From Rhizobiaceae bacterium (GTDB taxonomy: Bacteria > Pseudomonadota > Alphaproteobacteria > Rhizobiales > Rhizobiaceae): DNA of 64,000 nt. The notes under the pieces are model-generated. The model was not told where the DNA came from. It was given only the letters and a program-made list of their open reading frames with translations, and did not search any database. A program made the translations under genes and the position numbers. Within the stretch, counting starts at the first letter, position 1; each line of letters starts with the position of its first letter. This document shows positions 17,701 to 31,858 of the stretch, piece after piece. Location of the stretch: positions 62,001 through 126,000 of the forward strand of contig JARGOF010000003.1 in NCBI GenBank assembly GCA_029212415.1, given 5' to 3'.

Positions 17701-19395
17701 TCAGAACAAAAGCAGATGCGGTTTTTCGGGTTTTTGAGCTTCCGTTTGCTGACATTCTGAGGATTCTGGGCAATCTGGGCAATCTGGGCAATCTGGGCAA
17801 TCTGGGCAATCTGGGCAATCTGAAAATCCCGTTGACTCGGGCAGAAACTGGAAGCAGCTATCGAGTTTTTTGTAAATATCGACGGTCTGCTGCGCTCCGA
17901 CATTCAGCCCCGCCGGCAGACAGAATTTGCGACCATTGGGCAAACAAAGCGTCCAGGCGATACTTTTTTCAAAGGCGCTGGAGCCATTTGATACGGATAG
18001 ATCAGGACGCCATGCTTCGGGATGGGCAAATCCGGGCGCGCCGCCTTTGGCGTTGGGGCCAATGGCGTAGCCCCTGTTGCGCAACGTTTCAGGAAAGTCG
18101 ATGTCCTGTGAAATATCACCATCAAAGGTGATGTCATGGTCTTTTGGTTGCCATTTCCGGGTGAAATGTCCGGCAATATCCTTGTCTGTCTCGGCTGCCG
18201 AAAAGGGGAGTGTTGTGCAGCCAAGGTCGGCGGTTTTTCCAAACATGCGGGCCTTTGGCGGATGGCCGTAGCCAATGGCATTGTTGAAGTGACGAAGTTT
18301 TTTCAGGATGCCGCTTGGAAAAATTCCTTTGCCGGAGCGGTAGAACCAGGAGTTGTTGAAAACATAGATTTTACCCTCATTGTGCTGCGCGCCTCCCAGC
18401 TTGAAATGAGAACATTTGCGGCGGTGTCCATCCGAATTGGATGCGGGCGGATTGTTCACCCAGCCATAGTTTCCGTAAACATAGAACCAACCGGCGCGGT
18501 CCAGTTCAAAAGAAAACGGACGGTAGCAATCGGCCAGAATATTGTGACGGATAACCCAGTTCCAGGCATGATTTTCCGGTTCGATGACATTGTCACGAAT
18601 GCGCTTGAACCTGTTTTTCTCAATCAGGACATTGGCAGACGCTCGCTTGCCATCGTTGAATTCCAGGCTGTTCGGATCGACGCCCGGCGCCAGTCGATCC
18701 ACGCGATTGAAGAAATGGATGGCATTGAAAGCGTCGGATATCCTGTTTTTGCGAATGGTGATGTTGCCGGCGATATCCCATGCCCGGAAAAAATCACCGT
18801 CCCAGGCCCGGTAGTCTGCCTGCAGATCCACACCGGGACGGCCGGTGTTGTCCTTTGAGCCGTGGATGGCCGACCAGGGGATCCTGTTCCACATGGCATG
18901 GTCAGCGCTGACGTCCTGTTTCCATTTACAACGGGTTATTTTGAGGTCGCGCGTGGTTGATCCATTCGCGCCGATGGCAATTGTTCCTTCCCGGAAACGT
19001 ATGCGGCTCAGCGTGATGTGCTGACATTCATCCAGATAAAGCGCTGTCGGCCAGCATCGGACAAATTTGAACTTGCGCACGATGACATGCTTGCAGTGCA
19101 AAAAGACCAGGGCGGCTTCATCCGCAGTCTGTCCGACGCTGGGATAATAGCCAGCGGCCTGGCGGCGCTGGGCGATCAGATTGGCCCGTTTTGTGTATTC
19201 AGAAAGACTCAGACCGCTGGTAAAGATCGCGCCCTTTTCTGCTTCGATAAGGATGGGGTTGTTCCAGGTGCCCGCCAGGCCATTGAAGACAACGGGCTTG
19301 TCATAGATGCCCTTTTTGACAATCAGGCGATCGCCGGCGGTCAGCTTTTTGCTTTTGCGTGTGATATTTGCCGGGTTAACGCGGATACACACCAT
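17701..19395 (-). CDS. Right-handed beta-helix protein with a (DCP)6 tail
   Basis: The 564-aa protein opens with LTAGDRLIVKKGIYDKPVVF and PILIEAEKGAIFTSG, the usual first rungs of a parallel beta-helix as in pectate lyases and chondroitinase B. Helix-like strands continue through ITIRKNRISDAFNAIHF and VLIEKNRFKRIRDN to about residue 400. No signal peptide is visible at the annotated ATG and no strong ribosome site precedes it, so the start may be wrong. The C-terminus has six Asp-Cys-Pro triplets encoded by a 9-bp tandem repeat. It ends the ROK/di-haem/ASPIC gene series. A carbohydrate-active or structural surface role is inferred; no catalytic residues can be named. Confidence 0.7.
   Translation of the reverse strand: MVCIRVNPANITRKSKKLTAGDRLIVKKGIYDKPVVFNGLAGTWNNPILIEAEKGAIFTSGLSLSEYTKRANLIAQRRQAAGYYPSVGQTADEAALVFLHCKHVIVRKFKFVRCWPTALYLDECQHITLSRIRFREGTIAIGANGSTTRDLKITRCKWKQDVSADHAMWNRIPWSAIHGSKDNTGRPGVDLQADYRAWDGDFFRAWDIAGNITIRKNRISDAFNAIHFFNRVDRLAPGVDPNSLEFNDGKRASANVLIEKNRFKRIRDNVIEPENHAWNWVIRHNILADCYRPFSFELDRAGWFYVYGNYGWVNNPPASNSDGHRRKCSHFKLGGAQHNEGKIYVFNNSWFYRSGKGIFPSGILKKLRHFNNAIGYGHPPKARMFGKTADLGCTTLPFSAAETDKDIAGHFTRKWQPKDHDITFDGDISQDIDFPETLRNRGYAIGPNAKGGAPGFAHPEAWRPDLSVSNGSSAFEKSIAWTLCLPNGRKFCLPAGLNVGAQQTVDIYKKLDSCFQFLPESTGFSDCPDCPDCPDCPDCPDCPESSECQQTEAQKPEKPHLLLF
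17766..17819. repeat. 9-bp tandem repeat, six perfect copies
   Basis: The unit CTGGGCAAT is repeated six times without error on the plus strand. On the minus strand it encodes Asp-Cys-Pro in frame near the end of the beta-helix protein. Such perfect short repeats change length easily by slipped replication, here adding or losing three residues at a time without a frameshift. Confidence 0.95.
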
Positions 19396-19446
19396 TTGTC
19401 AGGACTGCCTTTTCTGCCAGCAACACGCAACAATCTTGCATTGGCA

Positions 19447-21129
19447 TCAAGTTTTGACAAGTCTGGCCTTCCTCTCAGGATACCAGTAGCGCGCATTGGC
19501 ATCACCGCGACGAATAATGACAAAATTATTGGCAAAGACCCGATAGGGTGGGCTCCATTCGCCATCGGGCCATTGCACGCGGATCTGGGCGCGCTCGGCA
19601 ACGCCTGTGCCCACATGGACGAAACCGGCATGACCGGAAGCGTGGCCGCCGCCTGTCTGTATCTTCCGCAGACGCGTCGCATTGCCGGACTTGACGAGGA
19701 TGGTCGCTCCAACCGCGTTGATATTTTCGCCGTCCTGCTGGAGTTCTATCTGCAGCCAGTTGCCCATGGGGCTGGCGCCCCAGTCGGCTTTTCCACCCAG
19801 ATTGCGAAAGACACTGGCCGGGGCTTCCCGGTTGACAACCACCAGATCGAGATTGCCGTCCATGTTGAAATCGGCGATCGCTGCCCCGCGGCCCCGCCGG
19901 TCAAGGTCGATGCCCGCTCGGTCACCGACCTCGACAAAAGTCCCGTCGTGTTGGCCGAGCAAAAGATTGTCCGGATCGAAGGCGGCAAAATCAGGCATTC
20001 TTTCCACATTGCCCTTGGCAATGTAGAGGTCCAGCAGGCCGTCGTTGTTGAAATCGGCGAATTCGGAGTGCCAGCCGGTGGAGGGTTTGAGATCACTGCC
20101 AATATAGGGGCGGTGGGCGGTCGCATGGCGCTCATAGGCGATGTCGCGGTAAACCGGACGCCCTTCTTCTGCTTCACTGTCCAGCGTTTGCAACTTGGTG
20201 TCGCCCATGGATGTCAGGGCATATTCGGGGAAGCCGTCGGCATCGATATCGCCTTCAGCGATCCCCATGCCCCAGATGTTGACCCGTTTCCAGCCATCGG
20301 ACCGGCGAAAAAGACGCGGTGGCTTGCCGGGGTCGACACGCCACATCTGTTCTTCGCCATCGCGGTAATATTGCCGGTCATTGGTCATGCGCAGCGCCGG
20401 TGTGCCGGAGCGGTTCCAGTCGGTAAAGAGCATCGACAGGGTGCAAAAGCCAGGCGTCAGAATGTCCGCTTCGCGGTAGTGCGGGCTGTCCGTTCCCTGC
20501 GGGCGCAACAGGATATTGTCGTGGCAGGTGCCCCAGGGTGATCCGGGTGCCGAGCGGTCGACATAGTTGCCGAAGGCGAGGGTGGGGAAGGGCTGGTCCC
20601 TTTCAAAAGTGGCAGCGAAGGCCGTTGTCCAGGCGCGTCCGCCGTCAAAGGCAAATTCGCGGTTGGCATTGCTGAAGCTGCAATCGGGTCCGCCTTTCAA
20701 AATGATGTTGCGGCCAAGGCGCAGCATGACGACATCCTTGAAGCCGTCATTGTTCAGGTCGATCGGATAAAGCCCGGTCACGCTCTCCAGTTCCGTGTCG
20801 TTGATATCCAGTTTTTGAGGGGTAAATTTCAGCGGTCCTGCCGGTTTGCTTTCATTGACGAAGAGTTGCATCTTGCTGGTTCCGCCGGCCAGCATCAGGT
20901 CTGGAAAACGGTCGCCGTTGCAATCAAGGGACGCTGCTCCACCACCGACGAAATATTCCCAGGGACCCGTGTAGCTGTGTTCGAGGCCTGCAGCCTTTGC
21001 CTGTTCAGCCATGACGGGAATATCCATTTGCACAGCTGTTTGCCCGGCTTCATCGGCGGCATGGGCCATCAAGACCCAGCCACTCATCAACAGTGCTGTG
21101 GTTATGCAGAAGGCGGATGTCTTGTTCAT
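19447..21129 (-). CDS. Exported FG-GAP/VCBS repeat protein with ASPIC/UnbV domain (CRTAC1-like)
   Basis: The 560-aa protein has a signal peptide (MNKTSAFCITTALLMSGWVL then AHAADE, cleavage near residue 25). At least five calcium-binding FG-GAP/VCBS loops follow: DCNGDRFPDL, DLNNDGFKDV, DIDADGFPEY, DFNNDGLLDL and DFNMDGNLDL. An ASPIC/UnbV domain lies near residues 455-530 (GNWLQIELQQDGENINAVGA, then VQWPDGEW). This architecture forms a beta-propeller used for adhesion or as a partner of secreted enzymes; its biochemical job is not established. It overlaps the di-haem cytochrome gene by 4 nt, so the two products are probably made together and both act outside the cytoplasm. Confidence 0.82.
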   Translation of the reverse strand: MNKTSAFCITTALLMSGWVLMAHAADEAGQTAVQMDIPVMAEQAKAAGLEHSYTGPWEYFVGGGAASLDCNGDRFPDLMLAGGTSKMQLFVNESKPAGPLKFTPQKLDINDTELESVTGLYPIDLNNDGFKDVVMLRLGRNIILKGGPDCSFSNANREFAFDGGRAWTTAFAATFERDQPFPTLAFGNYVDRSAPGSPWGTCHDNILLRPQGTDSPHYREADILTPGFCTLSMLFTDWNRSGTPALRMTNDRQYYRDGEEQMWRVDPGKPPRLFRRSDGWKRVNIWGMGIAEGDIDADGFPEYALTSMGDTKLQTLDSEAEEGRPVYRDIAYERHATAHRPYIGSDLKPSTGWHSEFADFNNDGLLDLYIAKGNVERMPDFAAFDPDNLLLGQHDGTFVEVGDRAGIDLDRRGRGAAIADFNMDGNLDLVVVNREAPASVFRNLGGKADWGASPMGNWLQIELQQDGENINAVGATILVKSGNATRLRKIQTGGGHASGHAGFVHVGTGVAERAQIRVQWPDGEWSPPYRVFANNFVIIRRGDANARYWYPERKARLVKT

Positions 21130-22559
21130 GGTTCAATCACCAGGGTTTTCAGATAGGCAATGAGCGCCACCCGTTGGGCATCGTCCAGTTCCATGTAGCG
21201 ATCCCGGCTTTGCCGTGCGTCGCCGCCATGCACCCGGATGACCTCGTCAAGCGTTGACAGATCACCACGATGTCCAAAGGGGGCCGTTGATGCGATGCCC
21301 CATAATTCACCGGTCATGAAGACGTCCCGATCCACGAAGCGCTGGCCGAGCAATTCATTGCCGAGATGGGCGATTTGCTGATCGGCAATGGTGTGCCGCT
21401 TCAGGTCGCCAAAAAGCGGCACCAGGACGGCGCCGTTGTCATCGCGGGGCAGGGTGGCCGACCAGGCCATGAGCGCCAGGTCATAGGTCGCGGTTTGGCT
21501 GACGTCGCCCTGGCGCAGGGTGCCTGCGCTGTCGAGCGGGCCGGGATCGGCAAAGGACAGGCTGTTGAGCGGTAGATGCCGCCGGTGACATTGTGTGCAG
21601 CCAGTCTCGTCAAGCAATTCGGAGCCTTCCGCAGCCAATTGTCGCCATTGGGCATTTCCCGGCGCAAGCTCTATTGGTGGTTTCAAGGTGGCCTGCCAGG
21701 CGACCAGCGCGGAAATATCACCGCGGGTCATTTCACCTTCTATCCCGTCCGCATCAAAGTCATTTTCTCCGGTCCATCGTGCGCCAAAACGTTCCTCTGC
21801 CTGCATGCCGTGATGGTGATTGAGGGCATTGACGGTGAACTGTCTGAGCGAACCAATGACGCCTTTCTGGCTGAACGGGCGGATGACCAGATCCGTATCA
21901 ACACCGTCGATTGCTGACAGGTCGACGATGCCGTCAGGGCCTGCGATGATTTTTCCGAAATCAACGCCTTTGCTGTTGAGCTGTGCCACCTGCGGCTTGC
22001 CGCTGGTCCGTGCCGCTTCCAGGGCAGCACGGCGCTGGTCTTGCAGATCGGCGCTCATTTCACGGGCGAGCAGTTCGATGAGCCCCGCACCCATCAGATG
22101 ATTGGTGTTGCGTTCATTGGAAAATTGCGGGTCGGTGCTGTCAAAATCAGCGTTGGTAAACCCTTCGGAAACAAAGACATTGGTGACGAAATCGCCTGCA
22201 CCGCCGATGATCGGATCATTGTGGCAGGACGAGCAGGCATTGGAATCGGTGCCGGCCAGCCGTTGGAATGATTGCTGCGGCGGTCTTTTGCGTTTTGTCG
22301 GAATGATGGCCTGGGTGGCCATCGGTCGGCCAACGCCGTCAATGGTTGTAAATCTGGCCGTGAACAGGGCCTCGCCTATGGTCGTCAGGGACTGCAATTG
22401 GTCCTTTGACAGTGTTCCTGAATATTTTTCCGGATCCACGTGATGGCCGATTGTCTTTTCCAGCCAGGGGTCGGGGACAGTTGAATCGTCGGCAGCGGCA
22501 GGCGCACCCATGGCTGCCAACATGAACAATCCGGTCAGAAGAGCTTTAGAAGTCGGCAT
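21126..22559 (-). CDS. Exported di-haem c-type cytochrome (MauG/di-haem peroxidase or DHOR-like)
   Basis: ATG 22559 gives MPTSKALLTGLFMLAAMGAP and an Ala-x-Ala cleavage site near residue 22; an upstream in-frame ATG at 22610 would bury this signal. Two haem-binding CxxCH motifs are present: CSSCH at about residues 109-113 and CTQCH at about 321-325. The length of 477 aa fits the di-haem oxidoreductase (COG3488-type) group better than the shorter cytochrome c peroxidases. Members perform periplasmic peroxide or protein oxidation; MauG oxidises a partner protein. The coupled gene for an ASPIC protein offers a candidate partner. Its start lies within the end of the ROK gene (14-nt overlap), so it is cotranscribed. 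Confidence 0.8.
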   Translation of the reverse strand: MPTSKALLTGLFMLAAMGAPAAADDSTVPDPWLEKTIGHHVDPEKYSGTLSKDQLQSLTTIGEALFTARFTTIDGVGRPMATQAIIPTKRKRPPQQSFQRLAGTDSNACSSCHNDPIIGGAGDFVTNVFVSEGFTNADFDSTDPQFSNERNTNHLMGAGLIELLAREMSADLQDQRRAALEAARTSGKPQVAQLNSKGVDFGKIIAGPDGIVDLSAIDGVDTDLVIRPFSQKGVIGSLRQFTVNALNHHHGMQAEERFGARWTGENDFDADGIEGEMTRGDISALVAWQATLKPPIELAPGNAQWRQLAAEGSELLDETGCTQCHRRHLPLNSLSFADPGPLDSAGTLRQGDVSQTATYDLALMAWSATLPRDDNGAVLVPLFGDLKRHTIADQQIAHLGNELLGQRFVDRDVFMTGELWGIASTAPFGHRGDLSTLDEVIRVHGGDARQSRDRYMELDDAQRVALIAYLKTLVIEP

Positions 22560-23799
22560 AATTGGAAACCTCGATGGCAGGATTGCTTGCCCCGGCAAAC
22601 ATGACGTCAAGTTCGAACAGTGCGGTGATTGTACAGCCGTCTATGATCAGTGGATTCTCGTCCGGAAAACAGTGAATCTCGATGTCGTCATCAATCACGT
22701 CCAGCTTGGTCTTGTTGATTGTTTCACGCAGGGACACTTCGATGAATTCAAAAGCTTCCGTTCCCTTTCCGACAAAGGCCACGGGAAAGGAATCCATCAG
22801 GGCATACATGTCGGCCAGGCCGGTGCCCAGTGCTTGTCCTGCCTCCCTGTAGGCCGCAATGGCGTCGGCATCTCCGGCACTTGCGGCCAGATGGACGGCC
22901 CGCATCTGCTGGGCATTGATATCGTTTCTGGGTTCCTTTGCATCGCTGATTGCGTGGGAACGACGGTAGATGGCATAGTCGCCTGCGTAGGCCTCTATGC
23001 AGCCGGTGCGGCCACAGCGGCAGAGCGCGCCATTGGGGATGTAGGATATATGGCCAAATTCGGTGCCGGAAGAGCGAATGCCGCTGACCAGTTCGCCATT
23101 CAGCATGAGACCCATGCCGATACCATGTGACAGCAGCACTGCTGCATAATTTCTGTTGTAACGGTCCGGGGCCCGCCAGTGCAGGGCGCGGGCGATCATG
23201 CTGCAATCATTGGCGACCCCGACATGCGCATGGAACAGGGGTTCCAGTTCTGCTTTGAAGGCGAGGTTGCGATGCGGGGTGATCGGCGACCAGAGCATGG
23301 ATGTGCCATCGACGTCTGTGACGCCCTGCACACCCAGCATGATGCGCTTCAAAGCGCGCCCTTCAGTCGGCAATTGAGACAAGGCGCTGTTGGTCGCGTC
23401 CTTGACGATTTCATAAAAGGCCTGAGGGCTGGCAAGGCGTGCCTCGAAGGCCCGATCAATGCCGGCAACGATATTTCCGGCATAGTCGGAAATGGTCACC
23501 GACACCCGGTCAAGTTGCAGCACGATGGAAGCCACCAGGGCGGCAGCGGGGTTCAGTGCCAGGCGAACCTGCGGCCGACCCCGTCCGCTGTTTTCAGTGG
23601 CTGTGGCCTCCATGATGACGATAATTCCTTCGTCCAGAAGTTCGGATGTGATGGCCGATACGGTCGAGGCGCTCAGCCCGGTTTTCGCGCAGATTCCCTT
23701 TCGTGATCGGGATGTATTGTGCCGCAAAACACCAAGAATACGGGCCCGATTGCGCTTGCGCACATCATCTGATCGTTCAAGCTCAGCCACCGCCCCCAT
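22546..23799 (-). CDS. ROK-family transcriptional repressor (XylR/NagC-like)
   Basis: The 417-aa protein has an N-terminal winged helix (NTSRSRKGICAKTGLSASTV, then SAITSELLDEG) and a ROK sugar-binding domain. The zinc cluster region GALCRCGRTGCIEAYAG matches the CxCGxxGCxE signature. It is divergent from the xylose transporter operon and separated from it by about 200 bases containing paired operator-like repeats, so it is the probable xylose repressor. The same transcript carries a di-haem cytochrome, an ASPIC protein and a beta-helix protein, which would place those under its autoregulation. The ligand (D-xylose) is inferred from the neighbours. Confidence 0.85.
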   Translation of the reverse strand: MGAVAELERSDDVRKRNRARILGVLRHNTSRSRKGICAKTGLSASTVSAITSELLDEGIIVIMEATATENSGRGRPQVRLALNPAAALVASIVLQLDRVSVTISDYAGNIVAGIDRAFEARLASPQAFYEIVKDATNSALSQLPTEGRALKRIMLGVQGVTDVDGTSMLWSPITPHRNLAFKAELEPLFHAHVGVANDCSMIARALHWRAPDRYNRNYAAVLLSHGIGMGLMLNGELVSGIRSSGTEFGHISYIPNGALCRCGRTGCIEAYAGDYAIYRRSHAISDAKEPRNDINAQQMRAVHLAASAGDADAIAAYREAGQALGTGLADMYALMDSFPVAFVGKGTEAFEFIEVSLRETINKTKLDVIDDDIEIHCFPDENPLIIDGCTITALFELDVMFAGASNPAIEVSNYADF

Positions 23800-23910: not shown

Positions 23911-24005
23911 TTTTTTCGAGCCTCGAATTAAATGGCTCATGTGTAAGCGAGACCAATCGTTCCGAATGGGCGGTTCGATGGTCCACTCACCGGGAGGTTG
24001 TTAAT

Positions 24006-25046
24006 ATGAAGATCCTTAATGCTGCACTTTTAGGTGCAGTTTTTGCTGTTTCCTTTGCTGGTTCTGCACTGGCTGATGGCAAAGTCATTGGTGTGTCCTG
24101 GTCCAATTTCCAGGAAGAACGCTGGAAGACAGACGAAGCTGCGATGAAGGCCGCCATTGAGGCAGCCGGCGACAGCTACATCTCTGCTGATGCGCAGTCT
24201 TCTGCTTCCAAGCAGTTGACCGATGTGGAAGCGCTGATTGCCCAGGGCGCCAATGCTCTGATCATTCTCGCTCAGGATGCCGGCGCCATCGGACCGGCAG
24301 TTGAAAAAGCATCTGCAGAAGGCATTCCAGTTGTCGGATACGATCGGCTGATCGAAAATCCGGAAGCCTTCTACATCACATTCGACAACAAGGAAGTCGG
24401 TCGCATGCAGGCGCGTGCGGTTCTGGCTGCCAAGCCCGAAGGCAATTATGCTTTCATCAAGGGGTCAGCGGCTGATCCGAATGCGGATTTCCTGTTTTCC
24501 GGTCAGATGGAAGTTCTCAAGGAAGCCATGGATTCAGGCAAGGTCAAGAATGTGGGCGAAGCCTATACGGATGGCTGGAAGCCGGAAAATGCTCAGCGTA
24601 ACATGGAGCAGATCCTGACGGCTAACGACAACAAGGTTGACGCTGTTGTTGCATCCAATGACGGTACAGCCGGCGGTGTTGTTGCTGCATTGTCTTCCCA
24701 GGGTATGGACGGAACCGTGCCTGTATCCGGTCAGGATGGCGATCATGCCGCGCTGAACCGCGTTGCATTGGGAACCCAGACCGTTTCCGTCTGGAAAGAT
24801 GCCCGTGAACTTGGCAAGAACGCAGCGGCAATTGCCTCATTGCTGGCCAATGGAACGGCGATGGCTGATGTGCCTGGTGCGGTCAAATGGTCGGGTGGTC
24901 CCGGCGGTGTCGAAATGGACGCCATTTTCCTGGCGCCTGTGCCGATCACCAAGGATAACCTGAACGTCGTGATCGACGCTGGATGGGTTTCCAAGGATGT
25001 CGTATGCCAGGGCGTCAAGGCCGGCACGACGGCTGCCTGTAACTGA
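24006..25046 (+). CDS. xylF: Xylose ABC transporter, periplasmic substrate-binding protein
   Basis: ATG 24006 has GGGAGG upstream and gives a clear signal peptide (MKILNAALLGAVFAVSFAG, cleavage after SALA). The in-frame extension from 23892 lacks these. The 346-aa product is a type I sugar-binding protein, with VIGVSWSNFQEERWKTDEAA near the mature N-terminus and QLTDVEALIAQGANALIILA as in XylF. It captures D-xylose in the periplasm and delivers it to the XylH/XylG complex. A hairpin-terminator pair follows the stop, a common way to make more binding protein than permease. Confidence 0.92.
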   Translation: MKILNAALLGAVFAVSFAGSALADGKVIGVSWSNFQEERWKTDEAAMKAAIEAAGDSYISADAQSSASKQLTDVEALIAQGANALIILAQDAGAIGPAVEKASAEGIPVVGYDRLIENPEAFYITFDNKEVGRMQARAVLAAKPEGNYAFIKGSAADPNADFLFSGQMEVLKEAMDSGKVKNVGEAYTDGWKPENAQRNMEQILTANDNKVDAVVASNDGTAGGVVAALSSQGMDGTVPVSGQDGDHAALNRVALGTQTVSVWKDARELGKNAAAIASLLANGTAMADVPGAVKWSGGPGGVEMDAIFLAPVPITKDNLNVVIDAGWVSKDVVCQGVKAGTTAACN

Positions 25047-25049
25047 TCA

Positions 25050-25106
25050 GCACATTCCGGATGAATGTGCGAAGCGCCGCGGTCTTTGAAGATCGCGGCG
25101 TTTTTT
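25050..25106 (+). terminator. Tandem hairpins with T-run between xylF and xylH (attenuator)
   Basis: The first hairpin pairs GCACATTC (25050-25057) with GAATGTGC (25063-25070). The second pairs CGCCGCG (25075-25081) with CGCGGCG (25094-25100) and is followed directly by six T (25101-25106), the form of a Rho-independent terminator. Because xylH and the other genes follow on the same strand, partial read-through is expected, so this sets the binding-protein to permease ratio. Confidence 0.8.
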
Positions 25107-25131
25107 GAAATATCTCAGGGGAGGTCCCGAC

Positions 25132-26454
25132 ATGACGGACGACAAGGGCTTGCAGGCAGCGCCTGAAGGCGAAAAGGCCCGTGCTTCGCAGATGTCGATC
25201 CTGGCGCGTTTTTTCAAGGCGACGGAACTCGACACCCGCATGCTGGGGATGATCGGCGCATTGCTGCTGATCTGGATATTGTTTGATATTTTTTCCGGTG
25301 GCCTCTTTCTGACGCCCCGCAATCTTTGGAATCTGTCTGTTCAGACAGCCTCTGTGGCGGTGATGGCCACAGGCATGGTTCTTGTCATCGTGACGCGCAA
25401 TATTGACCTGTCAGTCGGATCCATTCTGGGGTTCGTGGGCATGATCATGGCCGTCACCCAGGCGGAACTATTGCCGGCGCTTATCGGCTACGACAATCCT
25501 GTCACCTGGGTGATTGCTCTGGCTGTCGGTATCGCCGTGGGGGCTGCGATCGGCGCTTTGCATGGCTATGTCATCGCCTATCTTGGCGTGCCCGCCTTCA
25601 TTGTGACGCTTGGAGGTCTGCTCGTATGGCGCGGTGCTGCCTGGTGGGTAACGTCCGGGCGAACCGTTTCACCGATGGATTCCACCTTTCGGTTGATGGG
25701 GGGTGGTCCCACGGGGTCCATCGGCGCGACCGCAAGCTGGGCCGTGGGGATCGTGGCCTGTATCGCCATTATTGCAATGATCTGGAACTCGAGACGTCAG
25801 CGTCAAAGGTTCAAATTTCCGCTGCGGCCGCTTTGGGCGGAAGGGTTTCTTGCCGGTATCGGCTGTTTCGTCATTCTTGGCGCCGTTTGGGTCGTCAACA
25901 GCTACTACTGGCCGATCGGCATCGTGCGCAAATATATTGCGGCCAATGATTTGCAGATTGCCGAAGCCGATCTGCAGATTGCCCATGGCATTGCCATTCC
26001 GGTGCTCATGGCCATTGCTGTCGGCATTGTCATGACTTTCATCACCACACGGACACGGTTCGGGCGCTATGTCTTTGCGCTGGGGGGCAACCCCGAGGCA
26101 ACGGATTTCGCCGGGATCAATACGCGATGGGTAACGATGAAGATTTTCATCATCATGGGTATCCTGTGTGCCATCGCGGCAGCCATTTCGACGGCGCGTC
26201 TGAATGCGGCGACAAATGCGCAGGGCACCCTGGATGAGCTTCTGACCATTGCTGCAGCAGTCATCGGCGGCACCTCTCTGGCCGGTGGCGTTGGAACGAT
26301 CGTCGGCGCGATGATCGGTGCCGTCGTCATGCAATCGCTGCAATCGGGCATGGTCCTATTGGGACTTGATACACCGCTGCAGGCCATTGTTGTCGGCATT
26401 GTTCTGGTAATCGCGGTTTGGCTGGATTCGCTTTACCGTCGGTCTCAACATTAG
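25132..26454 (+). CDS. xylH: Xylose ABC transporter, permease
   Basis: ATG 25132 follows GGGGAGGT and gives 440 aa; the upstream TTG 25105 falls in the terminator T-run. The protein has about ten hydrophobic segments and the sugar-permease signatures TGMVLVIVTRNIDLSVGSIL and the C-terminal GGTSLAGGVGTIVGAMIGA. A longer cytoplasmic segment rich in Arg (WNSRRQRQRFKFPLRPL, about residue 225) is typical of XylH. A short internal duplication, LQIAEADLQIAHG, lies near residue 285. It forms the inner-membrane channel for xylose. Confidence 0.9.
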   Translation: MTDDKGLQAAPEGEKARASQMSILARFFKATELDTRMLGMIGALLLIWILFDIFSGGLFLTPRNLWNLSVQTASVAVMATGMVLVIVTRNIDLSVGSILGFVGMIMAVTQAELLPALIGYDNPVTWVIALAVGIAVGAAIGALHGYVIAYLGVPAFIVTLGGLLVWRGAAWWVTSGRTVSPMDSTFRLMGGGPTGSIGATASWAVGIVACIAIIAMIWNSRRQRQRFKFPLRPLWAEGFLAGIGCFVILGAVWVVNSYYWPIGIVRKYIAANDLQIAEADLQIAHGIAIPVLMAIAVGIVMTFITTRTRFGRYVFALGGNPEATDFAGINTRWVTMKIFIIMGILCAIAAAISTARLNAATNAQGTLDELLTIAAAVIGGTSLAGGVGTIVGAMIGAVVMQSLQSGMVLLGLDTPLQAIVVGIVLVIAVWLDSLYRRSQH

Positions 26455-26472: not shown

Positions 26473-27261
26473 ATGAACTCTGTCAATAAAGCTCAATCCC
26501 TTGTGGACATGGACAATATCTCGATCGCCTTTGGTGGTATCCAGGCAGTGGATGATACGTCGGTTGACCTTTTTGCCGGTGAAGTGGTGGCCCTGCTGGG
26601 CCACAATGGCGCCGGCAAGTCCACTCTGGTCAAGATCCTTTCCGGCGCCTACCGCCGCGACAAGGGCACCATCAAAATTGATGGCAAGGAAGTTGCGATC
26701 AACAACCCACGGGATGCCAAGGCCTACGGCATCGAGACGATCTATCAGACGCTCGCGCTGGCGGATAATGTCGATACGGCAGGCAATCTTTACCTCGGTC
26801 GTGAATTGCTGACCCCCTGGGGTACGCTGGACGATGTGGCCATGGAGGCCCGCGCCCGTGATGTCATGGGGCGGCTCAATCCGCGTTTTCAGCGCTTCAA
26901 GGAACCGGTCAAGGCGCTGTCGGGCGGACAAAGGCAATCGGTCGCCATCGCCCGTGCCATTTTGTTCAATGCACGCATCCTGATCATGGATGAGCCGACT
27001 GCAGCCCTCGGGCCGGAGGAGACGGCCCAAGTGTCGGAGCTGATCCTGCAACTCAAGTCGGAAGGCATCGGCATCTTCCTCGTCAGTCATGATATCCACG
27101 ATGTTTTTGATCTGGCCGACCGTGTCACGGTGATGAAAAACGGGCAGGTTGTGGGACATGCCAGAACGGAAGACGTCAACAAGGATGAGGTGCTGGGGAT
27201 GATCATTCTCGGCAAATGCCCGCCGGGTGCCATACCGGGCCCGGGCGCGCTGGCCTCGTAA
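26473..27261 (+). CDS. xylG: Sugar ABC transporter ATP-binding protein, single-domain
   Basis: The 262-aa protein has one complete nucleotide-binding domain: Walker [10 protein letters not shown], signature [14 protein letters not shown], Walker [12 protein letters not shown] and the switch histidine in FLVSHDIHD. Enterobacterial XylG has two such domains in about 500 residues; this half-length form, like FrcA, is common in alphaproteobacterial pentose transporters and presumably works as a homodimer. The gene starts 18 nt after xylH with GGGGAAAAG upstream. The C-terminus ends in a Gly/Pro-rich tail. Confidence 0.88.
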
Positions 27262-27284: not shown

Positions 27285-27330
27285 TCGCTGCTCGCCGGTT
27301 CGTTCGGCAGGCGGCATGATGGGAGGTAAT

Positions 27331-28782
27331 ATGTATCTTGGAATTGATCTTGGCACATCCAGTGTCAAGGCGCTGATCATTGACGATAAACAGGCCATTG
27401 TCGCGAGTGCTTCTGCCAATCTCGACGTTTCACGGCCGGCTGCCGGTTGGTCCGAACAGAACCCGGCAGACTGGATTTCGGCGACTGAAAAGGCGCTGCT
27501 GAAGCTCAAATCGGACCATGCGTCCTTGCTGGCTGCGGTTTCAGGCATTGGCCTGTCCGGCCATATGCACGGCGCCACCTTGCTGGATGACAGCGACAAG
27601 GTTCTGCGGCCCTGCATCTTGTGGAATGATACGCGCAGTCACGCGGAAGCTGCCACATTGGACAGCAATCCATTGTTTCGTGATCTTTCCGGCAACATCG
27701 TTTTTCCCGGATTTACTGCGCCAAAGTTGCTGTGGGTGAAAAACAATGAGCCCGACATTTTTGCAAGGACCGCCAAGGTCCTGCTGCCCAAGGACTTCCT
27801 GCGCCTGTGGCTGACCGGCGATTACGTTTCGGAGATGTCCGATGCGTCGGGGACAAGCTGGCTGGATGTCGGAAAGCGGGCCTGGGCGTCCTCCTTGCTG
27901 GATGCCTGCGACATGGATATTTCGCATATGCCGCGACTGGTCGAGGGAAGCGATGTCAGCGGCCTGCTGCGCGGAGCGCTGGCAGCTGAATGGGGTATGG
28001 CAGACAATGTCGTGGTTGCAGGCGGGGCAGGAGACAATGCCGCGACTGCGATCGGCATGGGCACGATTGCGGAGGGGCAGGCCTTTGTCTCTCTTGGTAC
28101 CTCTGGTGTGATCTTTGCGGCCAATGACAGCTATCGTCCCAATGCGGACAGTGCGGTTCACACCTTCTGCCATGCCGTTGCAGAGCGTTGGCATCAGATG
28201 GGTGTGATCCTGTCGGCAACCGATACGCTGAACTGGTTCGCGGGCATTACAGGTCGCTCGGCAGCCGATTTGACCGGTGAACTGGGCGACACCCTGCAAG
28301 CGCCCGGAGCCATTTTCCTGCCTTATCTTTCCGGTGAGCGCACGCCCCACAATGACGCCGCCATCCGCGGTGCCCTGACGAATATTTCGCATGCAACGGA
28401 TCGTCCAGCCATAACGGCGGCGATCTTGCAGGGTGTCGCCTTCGCCTTTCGCGACAATCTTGAGGCACTGGGCACCGTCGGCACGAAAGTCGACCGGTTG
28501 CTGGCCAGCGGCGGTGGTTCGCGGTCGGGCTTCTGGTTGAAAACCATTGCGACGGCCCTCAACGTGCCCATCGATGTGCCCGCTGCCGGCGAAGTGGGTG
28601 CTGCCTTTGGTGCGGCCCGCCTCGGCATGCTGGCGTCCATTGGCGCTCAGGGACTGGCGCTGTGTACGCCACCTGCCACAGATCACACGATTGAACCGGA
28701 TGCGGAATTTCTTTCGGCCTTCGATGATGCCTATCAACAATACCGGAAAACATATCCGGCCCTACGGAGTACACTATCATGA
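27331..28782 (+). CDS. xylB: Xylulokinase
   Basis: The 483-aa FGGY-family kinase has [18 protein letters not shown] (phosphate loop), [13 protein letters not shown], and [17 protein letters not shown] plus [13 protein letters not shown] in the C-terminal domain. It phosphorylates D-xylulose to enter the pentose phosphate pathway. ATG 27331 is chosen over ATG 27316 because GGGAGG at 27320-27325 is a good ribosome site for the later codon. The stop overlaps the xylA ATG by 4 nt. Confidence 0.92.
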
Positions 28783-30089
28783 GCACAGGTTTTTTTGGGG
28801 ATATCGAGCGCATTGCGTTTGAAGGTGCGGACAGCATAAACCCGCTGGCTTTCCGCCACTATGATCGCGATGAAGTGGTGCTTGGCAAACGGATGGAGGA
28901 TCACCTGCGGTTTGCCACGGCCTATTGGCACTCGCTGTGCTGGGAAGGGCTGGACCCCTTTGGCGGCCGGACCTTCGATCGGCCCTGGTTTGGCAATACG
29001 ATGGAACTGGCCAGACAAAAGGCCGATGTGGCCTTTGAAATGTTCTCGCTATTGGGGGTTCCCTACTATTGTTTTCATGATGTCGATGTGCGGCCTGAGG
29101 GCGCCGATTTTTCGGAAAATACAAAAAACCTGAATGCCATGGTGGATTATCTCGAACAGAAGCAGGCCGACACCGGCGTCAAGCTGCTGTGGGGCACAGC
29201 CAATCTGTTTTCAAACAGCCGCTACATGGCGGGTGCCGCCACCAATCCCGATCCCGATGTCTTTGCCTTTGCTGCTGCAACGGTGAAAACCTGCATGGAT
29301 GCGACCTTCCGTCTGGGCGGACAGAATTATGTGCTTTGGGGTGGTCGCGAAGGTTATGAAACGCTGCTCAATACGGATATGGGCCGGGAGCTTGATCAGC
29401 TTGGACGGTTCCTCAACATGGCTGTCGAATACAAGCACAAGATCGGCTTCAGTGGTGCCATTCTGCTTGAACCAAAGCCGCAGGAACCGACAAAACATCA
29501 ATACGATTACGATGTAGCGACCGTATACGGCTTTTTGAAACGTTATGGGCTTGAAAACGAGGTTCAGGTCAATATCGAGCAGGGTCATGCGATCCTGGCT
29601 GGCCATTCCTTTGAACATGAATTGGCAACAGCCAATGCACTGGGAATTTTCGGTTCCATCGACATGAACCGCAATGATTACCAGTCCGGCTGGGATACAG
29701 ACCAGTTCCCCAACAATGTGCCTGAAATGGCGTTGGCCTATTACCATGTCCTGCAGGGCGGTGGGTTCAAGACCGGCGGCACGAATTTTGATGCCAGGCT
29801 GCGTCGCCAATCGATCGAACCGGACGATCTGCTGATCGCCCATGTCGGTGGCATGGATTGCTGCGCCCGCGGACTGAAAGCCGCTGCGGCAATGATCGAG
29901 GACGGTGTTCTGCCTGGCTTCGTTGAAGAACGTTATGCCGGATGGCAGGGTGAAGAAGCCCGCAAAATGCTCAGTGGCCAGTATGGTTTTGATGACATCG
30001 CCAAATATGTCACCGATGCCAATGTCAATCCAAAGCCCAGGTCCGGCCGCCAGGAATATCTGGAAAATGTCGTCAACAGGTATGTCTGA
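28779..30089 (+). CDS. xylA: Xylose isomerase
   Basis: The 436-aa TIM-barrel enzyme contains FWGGREGYE in the form [20 protein letters not shown], the metal-site segment [17 protein letters not shown], and [19 protein letters not shown] then [17 protein letters not shown]. These give the glutamate, aspartate and histidine ligands of the two metal ions. It converts D-xylose to D-xylulose in the cytoplasm. The length fits class II enzymes. It is translationally coupled to xylB. Confidence 0.95.
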
Positions 30090-30196: not shown

Positions 30197-31858
30197 ATGC
30201 TGAAAAATCCGATACTGCCGGGGTTCAATCCCGATCCCTCCATCTGGCGGGTGGGAGAGGATTATTATATCGCAACCTCGACCTTCGAGTGGTATCCGGG
30301 GGTTCAGATTCATCATTCACGCGATCTGGTCAATTGGACATTGGCCTGTCGGCCTCTGACGAGAGCCAGCCAGCTTGATATGCGCGGCAATCCGGATTCC
30401 TGCGGGATATGGGCGCCATGCCTGTCCTTCGCGGACGGTCTTTTCTGGCTGATCTACACGGATGTGAAGCGGTTGGACGGCAGTTACAAGGATGCCCATA
30501 ATTATCTGGTTACGGCGCCTGCGATAGACGGGCCATGGTCTGATCCTGTTCACCTCAATTCTTCCGGCTTCGATCCATCGCTGTTTCATGATGATGACGG
30601 TCGCAAATGGTTCTTGAACATGGTGTGGAATCATCATGGCAAGCGGCCTGGCCCCGATGGTGTGGAACCGGGAAGTTTCGGTGGCATTCTCATTCAGGAA
30701 TATGATGCGGACAGTCAGAAACTGATCGGGCCGGTGACCAATATTTTCGCCGGTTCAAAACAGGCGCTGACCGAAGCACCGCATCTGCTGCGCCATGACG
30801 GCTGGTACTTTCTGTGCACGGCAGAGGGCGGCACCGGCTATGACCATGCCATAACCTACGCACGTTCAAGATCCCTTTTGGGCCCCTATGAGATGCATCC
30901 GGATATTCATCTGATGACCACCAAGGATGCGCCGGATTCAAAATTGCAGCGGGTGGGCCATGGGCAATTGGTGGAAACGCCGAATGGTCAATTCTTCCAC
31001 ACCTTTCTCTGTTCCCGGCCACTGGACGGACTGCGTCGCTCGCCGCTGGGACGCGAAACCGGTATTGCGCCGGTGGTCTATGGTGATGATGGCTGGTTCC
31101 ACACGCCGGATCGCAATCCTGTTCCGCCGGTAACAGTGGAAAGCGTTACGGCCCTGCCGACACAGGCCGGTCCGGAGAAGTGTCTTTACGAATTTGACAA
31201 TGGTCGATTGCCTGCTGATTTCCAGTGGCTGCGAACTCCGGAGCCGGATCGGATTTTTTCGACCGTTGCGCGTCCCGGTTACCTCAGGCTGTTCGGGCGG
31301 GAATCCATCGGTTCGTGGTTCGAGCAATCACTTGTCGCGCGGCGGCAGACGGCAATTCGCTATAGTGCAGAAACAGCGGTGGACTTTCAGCCACATTCGT
31401 TTCAGCAAATGGCAGGGCTGACGGCCTACTACAACAAGACCAAGTTTCATTATCTCTGCGTCAGCCTGAACAAGGAGGGGCAGCGGGTTCTGGATATCCA
31501 GAGTTGTCCGGGAGACTGGCCCAATGGAGATGTGACCTATCCGCTGGCGCAGGAACTTGTCTTGCCAGAGGGTGGGCCAGAGGGTGGGCCAGAGGGTGGG
31601 CCAGAGGGTGGGCCAGAGGGTGGACCAGTCTGGCTGGGCGTTGATGTGCGCGGTGCCGAATTGCAATTTCGCTTTGCCCTGAAAGAGGGTGCATGGCAGC
31701 CGATCGGGCCGGTGCTGGACGCATCCGTCCTTTCGGACGAGGGTGGCCGTGGTGAACATTCCAGTTTCACCGGTGCATTTGTCGGCATGGCTGCACAGGA
31801 TCTGACCGGCGCTGGACTCAGTGCTGATTTTTCCCACTTCAGCTATGAAAATTTCTAA
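30197..31858 (+). CDS. Beta-xylosidase, glycoside hydrolase family 43
   Basis: The 553-aa enzyme has the GH43 five-bladed propeller with three acidic residues in place: NPILPGFNPDPSIW (base), SSGFDPSLFHDDDG (pKa modulator) and LTEAPHLL (acid). A concanavalin-like GH43 C-terminal domain follows from about residue 320. There is no signal peptide, so it acts in the cytoplasm on imported xylo-oligosaccharides and yields xylose for XylA/XylB. Five Pro-Glu-Gly-Gly units, encoded by a 12-bp repeat, interrupt the C-terminal domain near residue 460. It follows xylA by 107 bases, so it probably belongs to the same regulon. Confidence 0.9.
   Translation: MLKNPILPGFNPDPSIWRVGEDYYIATSTFEWYPGVQIHHSRDLVNWTLACRPLTRASQLDMRGNPDSCGIWAPCLSFADGLFWLIYTDVKRLDGSYKDAHNYLVTAPAIDGPWSDPVHLNSSGFDPSLFHDDDGRKWFLNMVWNHHGKRPGPDGVEPGSFGGILIQEYDADSQKLIGPVTNIFAGSKQALTEAPHLLRHDGWYFLCTAEGGTGYDHAITYARSRSLLGPYEMHPDIHLMTTKDAPDSKLQRVGHGQLVETPNGQFFHTFLCSRPLDGLRRSPLGRETGIAPVVYGDDGWFHTPDRNPVPPVTVESVTALPTQAGPEKCLYEFDNGRLPADFQWLRTPEPDRIFSTVARPGYLRLFGRESIGSWFEQSLVARRQTAIRYSAETAVDFQPHSFQQMAGLTAYYNKTKFHYLCVSLNKEGQRVLDIQSCPGDWPNGDVTYPLAQELVLPEGGPEGGPEGGPEGGPEGGPVWLGVDVRGAELQFRFALKEGAWQPIGPVLDASVLSDEGGRGEHSSFTGAFVGMAAQDLTGAGLSADFSHFSYENF
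31565..31624. repeat. 12-bp tandem repeat, five copies, inside the xylosidase gene
   Basis: The unit CCAGAGGGTGGG is present five times; only the last base of the fifth copy differs (A instead of G). It encodes Pro-Glu-Gly-Gly in frame. The insert probably forms a flexible loop in the beta-sandwich domain and can lengthen or shorten by four residues per unit. Confidence 0.95.

Follow-up and report, generated by a model that had tools for sequence, protein, structure and literature searches.

A 64-kb stretch of contig JARGOF010000003.1 from a Rhizobiaceae bacterium (the window, i.e., the whole of the DNA analyzed, in whose positions all coordinates are given) carries four minus-strand genes at 17701..23799 and a divergent group of plus-strand genes that extends to 31858 (Table 1). 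The subject of this report is the middle two of the four, whose products are both exported, one being a di-haem enzyme (DHOR) and the other a CRTAC1-like propeller protein (ASPIC); the two genes are shown here to be paired within the xylose uptake and catabolism gene set of many Alphaproteobacteria and Granulosicoccaceae. A first-pass annotation of the window had described the four genes as closely packed, and its coordinates are exact: the ROK and DHOR genes overlap by 14 nt, DHOR and ASPIC overlap by 4 nt (ATGA), and 51 nt separate ASPIC from the beta-helix gene. This packing is beyond chance, because the same arrangement recurs widely. The divergent xylFHGBA and GH43 genes named in that annotation were also confirmed, with xylF, xylB, and xylA passing NCBIfam cut-offs, GH43 passing its Pfam cut-off, and xylH and xylG assigned by position and similarity. 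The ROK, DHOR, and FG-GAP/ASPIC products likewise pass Pfam cut-offs. For xylF, the ATG at 24006 was taken as the start in place of the upstream TTG (23892) at which the open reading frame list begins.

Table 1. Features of the di-haem/ASPIC locus and the divergent xylose genes.
Feature	Position	Strand	Basis or remark
ROK-family repressor gene, first in its unit	22546..23799	-	Pfam ROK 2e-29; winged helix-turn-helix
DHOR, exported di-haem enzyme (PF06537, MauG/bCCP superfamily), core	21126..22559	-	Start is ATG
ASPIC, exported FG-GAP/ASPIC (CRTAC1-like) propeller with C-terminal ASPIC domain, core	19447..21129	-	
Beta-helix gene, no signal peptide, genus-limited, outside core	17701..19395	-	Match below Pfam cut-off
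Pair of imperfect direct repeats on the upstream side of ROK, AATTGCTGCAATGCAA / AATTGCTGCATTACAA	23821..23855	.	
Near-palindrome TTTTTTCGAGCCTCGAATTAA, 21 bp, candidate operator for ROK, located between the two divergent units	23911..23931	+	
xylF, D-xylose binding protein	24006..25046	+	TIGR02634, 431.4 bits (cut-off 389.55)
xylH, permease	25105..26454	+	Named from position/similarity; divergent-strand homologue in 62 of 80 loci
xylG, ATPase	26473..27261	+	Named from position/similarity; divergent-strand homologue in 58 of 80 loci
xylB, xylulokinase	27316..28782	+	TIGR01312, 554.5 bits (cut-off 380.25)
xylA, xylose isomerase	28779..30089	+	TIGR02630, 688.4 bits (cut-off 533.25)
GH43 beta-xylosidase-type gene, linked, outside core	30197..31858	+	Pfam GH43 6e-95 (above cut-off), GH43_C2

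The DHOR-ASPIC pair and its recurrence

DHOR belongs to the superfamily of bacterial cytochrome c peroxidases (bCCP) and MauG, with two CxxCH haem sites (C109/C112/H113 and C321/C324/H325, the two motifs expected from the first-pass annotation) in a two-domain bCCP fold. It scores 36.7 bits against PF06537 (cut-off 22), the best stretch covering merely residues 408-473, and falls far under the equivalog cut-off of the MauG model (TIGR03791; 19.6 bits, cut-off 443.85) and does not reach that of the MbnH model (TIGR04039; 21.9 bits, cut-off 362.85). Pfam and structure comparison place the second protein in the CRTAC1/ASPIC family (PF07593), an FG-GAP propeller being followed by the ASPIC domain. 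Both proteins have hydrophobic signal-like N-termini, in keeping with the signal peptides previously assigned to them, and the same N-terminal check found none on the ROK and beta-helix proteins of the window. Among sequences passing length and stop filters, window included, a simple hydropathy rule found an export-type N-terminus in 74 of 80 DHOR and 51 of 60 ASPIC proteins, compared with 0/68 ROK and 0/28 XylA proteins; the rule under-counts, picking up just 40 of 54 XylF.

A DHOR scan with one genome per species returned 116 relatives, and the 80 best of them make up the set of loci; as these were picked by DHOR similarity and many are kin, they form no unbiased census. A same-strand ASPIC homologue lies directly downstream of DHOR in 74 of the 80, and 61 of these 74 pairs share the 4-nt stop/start overlap, a sign of translational coupling. 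ROK is upstream of DHOR in 67 loci, and xylF is divergent in 66 and upstream on the same strand in one more. The six loci that lack ASPIC comprise two at contig ends (L076, L099) and four distant ones (L095, L096, L098, L101; 42-45%). When 61 relative genomes were searched separately, a close DHOR was found in 18 (E at most 1e-141), with ASPIC adjacent in every one and ROK adjacent in 16. By record title the hosts include Rhizobiaceae, Kiloniellaceae, Amylibacter, Hoeflea, Nitratireductor, and the gammaproteobacterial Granulosicoccaceae. No further gene is generally conserved downstream of ASPIC across the loci; xylB follows it in 16 of the 80, of which 15 have Granulosicoccus or Granulosicoccaceae in the record title. 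In one near relative (L022, 11431-13110) the ASPIC gene has a TAG at the codon that is ninth from the end of the window protein.

The recurrence that the first-pass annotation proposed as a check takes a narrower form. The exported DHOR-ASPIC pair beside ROK and xylFHG recurs strongly and is the conserved unit; the set of all four genes is limited to the genus.

Because these loci were selected through DHOR, ASPIC was used as an independent query. A search of 289 class genomes gave 10 hits and a profile search of 398 phylum genomes gave 21, their union being 26 genomes with the xylose-type ASPIC. A di-haem partner is carried by 21 of the 26, in 15 of them at the ASPIC gene itself: DHOR adjoins ASPIC in five (G000, G061, G531, G585, G027), a CCP_MauG-type gene does so in nine (G082, G312, G214, G638, G509, G446, G551, G703, G701; Pfam was run only on the G214 protein, to which the other eight are 57-66% identical), and the two are fused in one (G610). 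Elsewhere in the genome, DHOR was found in three (G130, G397, G307) and a CCP_MauG-type (CCP) gene in three more (G620, G644, G253; 58-59% identity to the G214 protein, paralogues reaching at most 49%). Either xylF or xylAB is present in 24 of the 26, xylF being part of the ASPIC locus in 19 and lying elsewhere in four (G130, G397, G307, G640), and xylAB adjoining ASPIC in one whose contig is cut (G253); neither was found in G256 and G610. In three genomes from whose xylose genes ASPIC has moved away, DHOR remains divergent from xylF (G130, G397) or adjoins xylA/xylB (G307), so that each gene is separately tied to the xylose genes. By eye, two xylose-type ASPIC genes (L114, L117) stand beside LIV-type-looking ATP-binding cassette (ABC) permease genes and not beside xylFHG.

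PF07593 occurs in 39 of the 398 phylum genomes. As a control, we inspected 19 stretches that hold 20 of the 26 PF07593 matches outside the xylose-type set (four of them short: L200, L202, L204, L208), and at E 1e-4 neither CCP nor DHOR was present in any of the 19; multi-haem open reading frames, with 5 and 8 CxxCH motifs, occur in two. A general link between ASPIC proteins and di-haem enzymes was rejected on this result, and the pairing is instead a trait of the xylose-type ASPIC and of the fused proteins.

The family of the di-haem partner differs by ASPIC clade. In a maximum-likelihood tree of 52 ASPIC sequences, the 32 DHOR-linked sequences fall in one clade of 35 (support 96/94) and the nine CCP-linked sequences in another of 12 (support 99/99), and the partner labels require 9 changes, compared with 18.9 in shuffles; the fused sequence sits on a very long branch and its placement is unsure. 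One fusion is a frame of 1093 codons (L156) in which CCP_MauG, FG-GAP, and UnbV_ASPIC domains occur in a single gene, and a 67% relative in a second genome (G729) matches both the CCP and the ASPIC profiles, which themselves included the first. The pairing is real and recurrent, it is built from known families, and it is apparently undescribed; new here are the switch of partner family between ASPIC clades, the fused form, and the lack of any such partner at the other ASPIC genes checked.

Regulation and neighboring genes

Operator-like repeats had been reported between the divergent units, and two elements answer to that description. The near-palindrome has no second match in the 64 kb when up to 3 mismatches are allowed (0.02 matches expected), and a version with no more than 4 mismatches is present in 53 of the 67 ROK/xylF regions compared (those of the window and of 66 loci, L022 excluded) vs 0.8% of Markov shuffles, a count inflated by kinship and by the choice of the motif from the same sequences that were scored. 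The direct repeats recur by eye in same-genus genomes. ROK likely co-regulates both divergent units, as judged from these sequence patterns.

The beta-helix gene, which the first-pass annotation had included in the unit, does not belong to it, being genus-limited and devoid of a signal peptide. It follows ASPIC solely in the window and in four same-genus genomes (G004-G007; adjacent at loci L234-L237), and among the 80 DHOR loci it was seen at L022 only, some loci being cut by contig ends. Two other genomes (G002, G003) hold a 46-47% homologue on a contig other than that of DHOR, and none was found in G001. A four-gene unit was rejected because the beta-helix gene is genus-limited. The four syntenic relatives show no signal peptide by eye. 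The proteins encoded after ASPIC share a C-terminus ending in KPxLLLF (17701-17730 in the window; L235-L237), with no N-terminal signal, and this end is missing from the non-syntenic homologues L238, L239, and L242; it is possibly a C-terminal export signal. At its end, the window gene contains a perfect, in-frame 9-bp tandem repeat (17765-17822, 6.4 copies; Cys-Pro-Asp repeats), and the near relative at L234 is without this expansion. In the GH43 gene, a 12-bp tandem repeat (31564-31628, 5.4 copies) is likewise in frame and encodes Gly-Pro-Glu-Gly repeats.

Predicted haem ligation and possible roles of the pair

The pairing suggests a redox step, so far undescribed, that is linked to the uptake of sugar. 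We tentatively favor, as the most likely of the readings considered, a redox complex that would work outside the cytoplasm as part of the xylose/glucose uptake regulon, and in which the propeller would bind substrate and the di-haem protein would serve as an exchangeable redox subunit. DHOR and ASPIC would form this complex in the periplasm or envelope under ROK control. The propeller-ASPIC protein would be a substrate-binding subunit with a function of its own, and the di-haem protein, whose second haem has predicted His/His ligation, would exchange electrons with the propeller-bound substrate in either direction or reduce peroxide. In the likely role of such a complex, a sugar or a compound derived from one would be oxidized just outside the cytoplasm, in connection with import by XylFHG. 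In R. pomeroyi, xylFGH takes up both glucose and xylose (PMC10130141), so that either of these sugars may be the one served by the pair. More doubtful is the proposition that the pair represents a novel type of extracytoplasmic redox enzyme, with a CRTAC1-type propeller as substrate-binding or catalytic part and a swappable di-haem subunit, dedicated to sugar acquisition.

The haem ligands bear on the chemistry. DHOR H444 and H352 of the CCP type align with each other and with the sole Met in that stretch of bCCP, which we take to be the ligand of the six-coordinate haem. In the sequence alignment His occupies this column in 44 of 44 DHOR proteins, and MauG has Tyr there. PMC6405878 gives the haem ligation as Met-His in bCCP and Tyr-His in MauG and BthA, and reports that BthA Y463H loses the near-infrared bis-Fe(IV) feature on peroxide and retains peroxide reduction; the same near-infrared loss is cited there for MauG Y294H. 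A naturally invariant His therefore makes MauG-type maturation less likely than electron transfer or a peroxidase reaction, and it weakens the suggestion in the first-pass annotation that the di-haem enzyme could oxidize the ASPIC protein. As a hallmark of ASPIC linkage the His ligand was rejected, since it also occurs in seven CCP paralogues that are not ASPIC-linked. By eye, a CCP_MauG-type paralogue lies beside TRAP-like genes (DctP, DctM, DctQ) at L226 (contig C39 of the window's own genome, 4633-6270) and at L227 (3925-5736).

A less likely alternative, which we consider improbable as it stands, is maturation in the manner of MauG, whereby the di-haem protein and peroxide would oxidize or cross-link Trp or Tyr residues of ASPIC and so activate it. 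DHOR shares a superfamily with MauG and MbnH, it is tightly paired with ASPIC, a CCP_MauG-type enzyme is fused to ASPIC in two genomes, and ASPIC holds many invariant Trp and Tyr; a weak hint is that ASPIC sequences from five partnerless genomes have Phe at Y218 (4/5) and Y53 (2/5). Against this, the six-coordinate haem column is His and not Tyr in every sequence checked, the very substitution that abolished the near-infrared feature in BthA and, as cited, MauG (PMC6405878). Moreover, 120 of 130 conserved ASPIC columns are kept in at least four of the five partnerless sequences, and none of the 10 that are not is a Trp, His, Cys, or Met column; three control samples from the CCP subset lose 3-5 columns. 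Among these five sequences there is no clear case of a specific ASPIC residue lost along with the di-haem gene.

It is also rather improbable that the di-haem protein acts simply as a peroxidase, guarding exported proteins against peroxide during aerobic sugar use, with ASPIC a separate calcium-dependent binder of glycans or sugars and the two sharing regulation without interacting. The bCCP fold, the convergent and separately transcribed CCP genes, the ASPIC genes for which no partner was found (5/26), and the paralogue beside TRAP-like genes in two genomes would all suit such an arrangement; the 4-nt overlap in 61 of 74 DHOR/ASPIC pairs, the CCP-ASPIC fusion in two genomes, and a pairing so specific that it is seen in none of the 19 other ASPIC stretches argue for a closer relationship. 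Least probable of all, and by our estimate distinctly unlikely, is a propeller that acts on oxidized sugars as an aldos-2-ulose dehydratase-type enzyme, with the di-haem protein clearing peroxide or making the oxidized sugar. The propeller matches that enzyme at the level of the fold only, many non-enzyme propellers reach equal or higher Z (LGI1, 27.6), and there is no sequence match in the PDB, which made it impossible to map the active-site residues of the dehydratase onto the propeller.

Several observations weigh against the extracytoplasmic redox complex that we favor. First, the di-haem partner is not obligatory for this ASPIC type, because five of the 26 genomes have no DHOR or close CCP that we could find (G268, G557, G570, G640, and G256, where a CCP match of 36% only was not counted), and where the partner is CCP, its gene runs convergently with ASPIC and is not in one operon with it. 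Second, in three of the 80 loci (L025, L027, L029) the pair lies away from the xyl genes, xylF being elsewhere in all three genomes; xylF was not found in either fusion-bearing genome; and the neighbors of the fusions, a pyrroloquinoline quinone (PQQ) dehydrogenase, a Rieske protein, and a TonB receptor at L156 and a flavin mononucleotide (FMN) dehydrogenase gene at L219 (G729), indicate a non-xylose context. XylA and XylB, furthermore, make a complete non-oxidative route, and xylose use needs no oxidation. Finally, the column His is shared with the seven CCP paralogues that lack an ASPIC link, no catalytic site was identified in the propeller, and the AlphaFold model was made without haem and is of low confidence in the N-terminal haem region.

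XylFGH xylose uptake is regarded as a complete textbook module, yet a redox pair, exported and conserved, accompanies it in many Alphaproteobacteria and in Granulosicoccaceae. Partner switching and natural fusion open a direct protein-protein hypothesis to testing, and the predicted His ligand offers a clear spectroscopic distinction from MauG-like chemistry. The bacterial pair is, in addition, a tractable system for the poorly understood CRTAC1/ASPIC family. We know of no biochemical role for that family, and if the propeller is indeed an enzyme subunit, this would be the first, the animal protein included.

Relation to known systems

The first-pass annotation knew of no described pathway with this gene set, and literature searches, in a library with few subscription papers or preprints, likewise turned up no title or abstract opening that describes a DHOR-ASPIC-xylose pairing, most of the papers returned being unrelated. 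The term ASPIC does not occur in PMC10130141, PMC9283371, PMC4496055, or PMC8023676, and cytochrome is likewise missing from the main text of the first of these.

The closest parallel in overall layout is the beta-gamma part of hydrazine synthase, which also combines a propeller with a bCCP-like di-haem protein; its chemistry differs, and here the propeller is of the FG-GAP/ASPIC type and the context is a sugar regulon. Its non-anammox homologues belong to the same comparison, and one neighboring idea has been published: homologues of hydrazine synthase adjoin a CRTAC1-family gene and, in one clade, also ABC binding-protein genes (PMC12758564). MauG with pre-methylamine dehydrogenase and MbnH with MbnP are likewise periplasmic di-haem enzymes, each gene-paired with one exported partner. 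The enzyme described here differs from both in its DHOR family, its scores far under both model cut-offs, and an unrelated partner, and from MauG in having His at the Tyr position. In comparison with murine CRTAC1 (PDB 9etn), the bacterial ASPIC subfamily has invariant residues of its own, four Cys, and a di-haem partner. Lastly, xylFGH-xylAB loci such as that of the R. pomeroyi glucose/xylose transporter share the transporter family and the catabolic genes with the present locus, to which the di-haem and ASPIC genes are added here.

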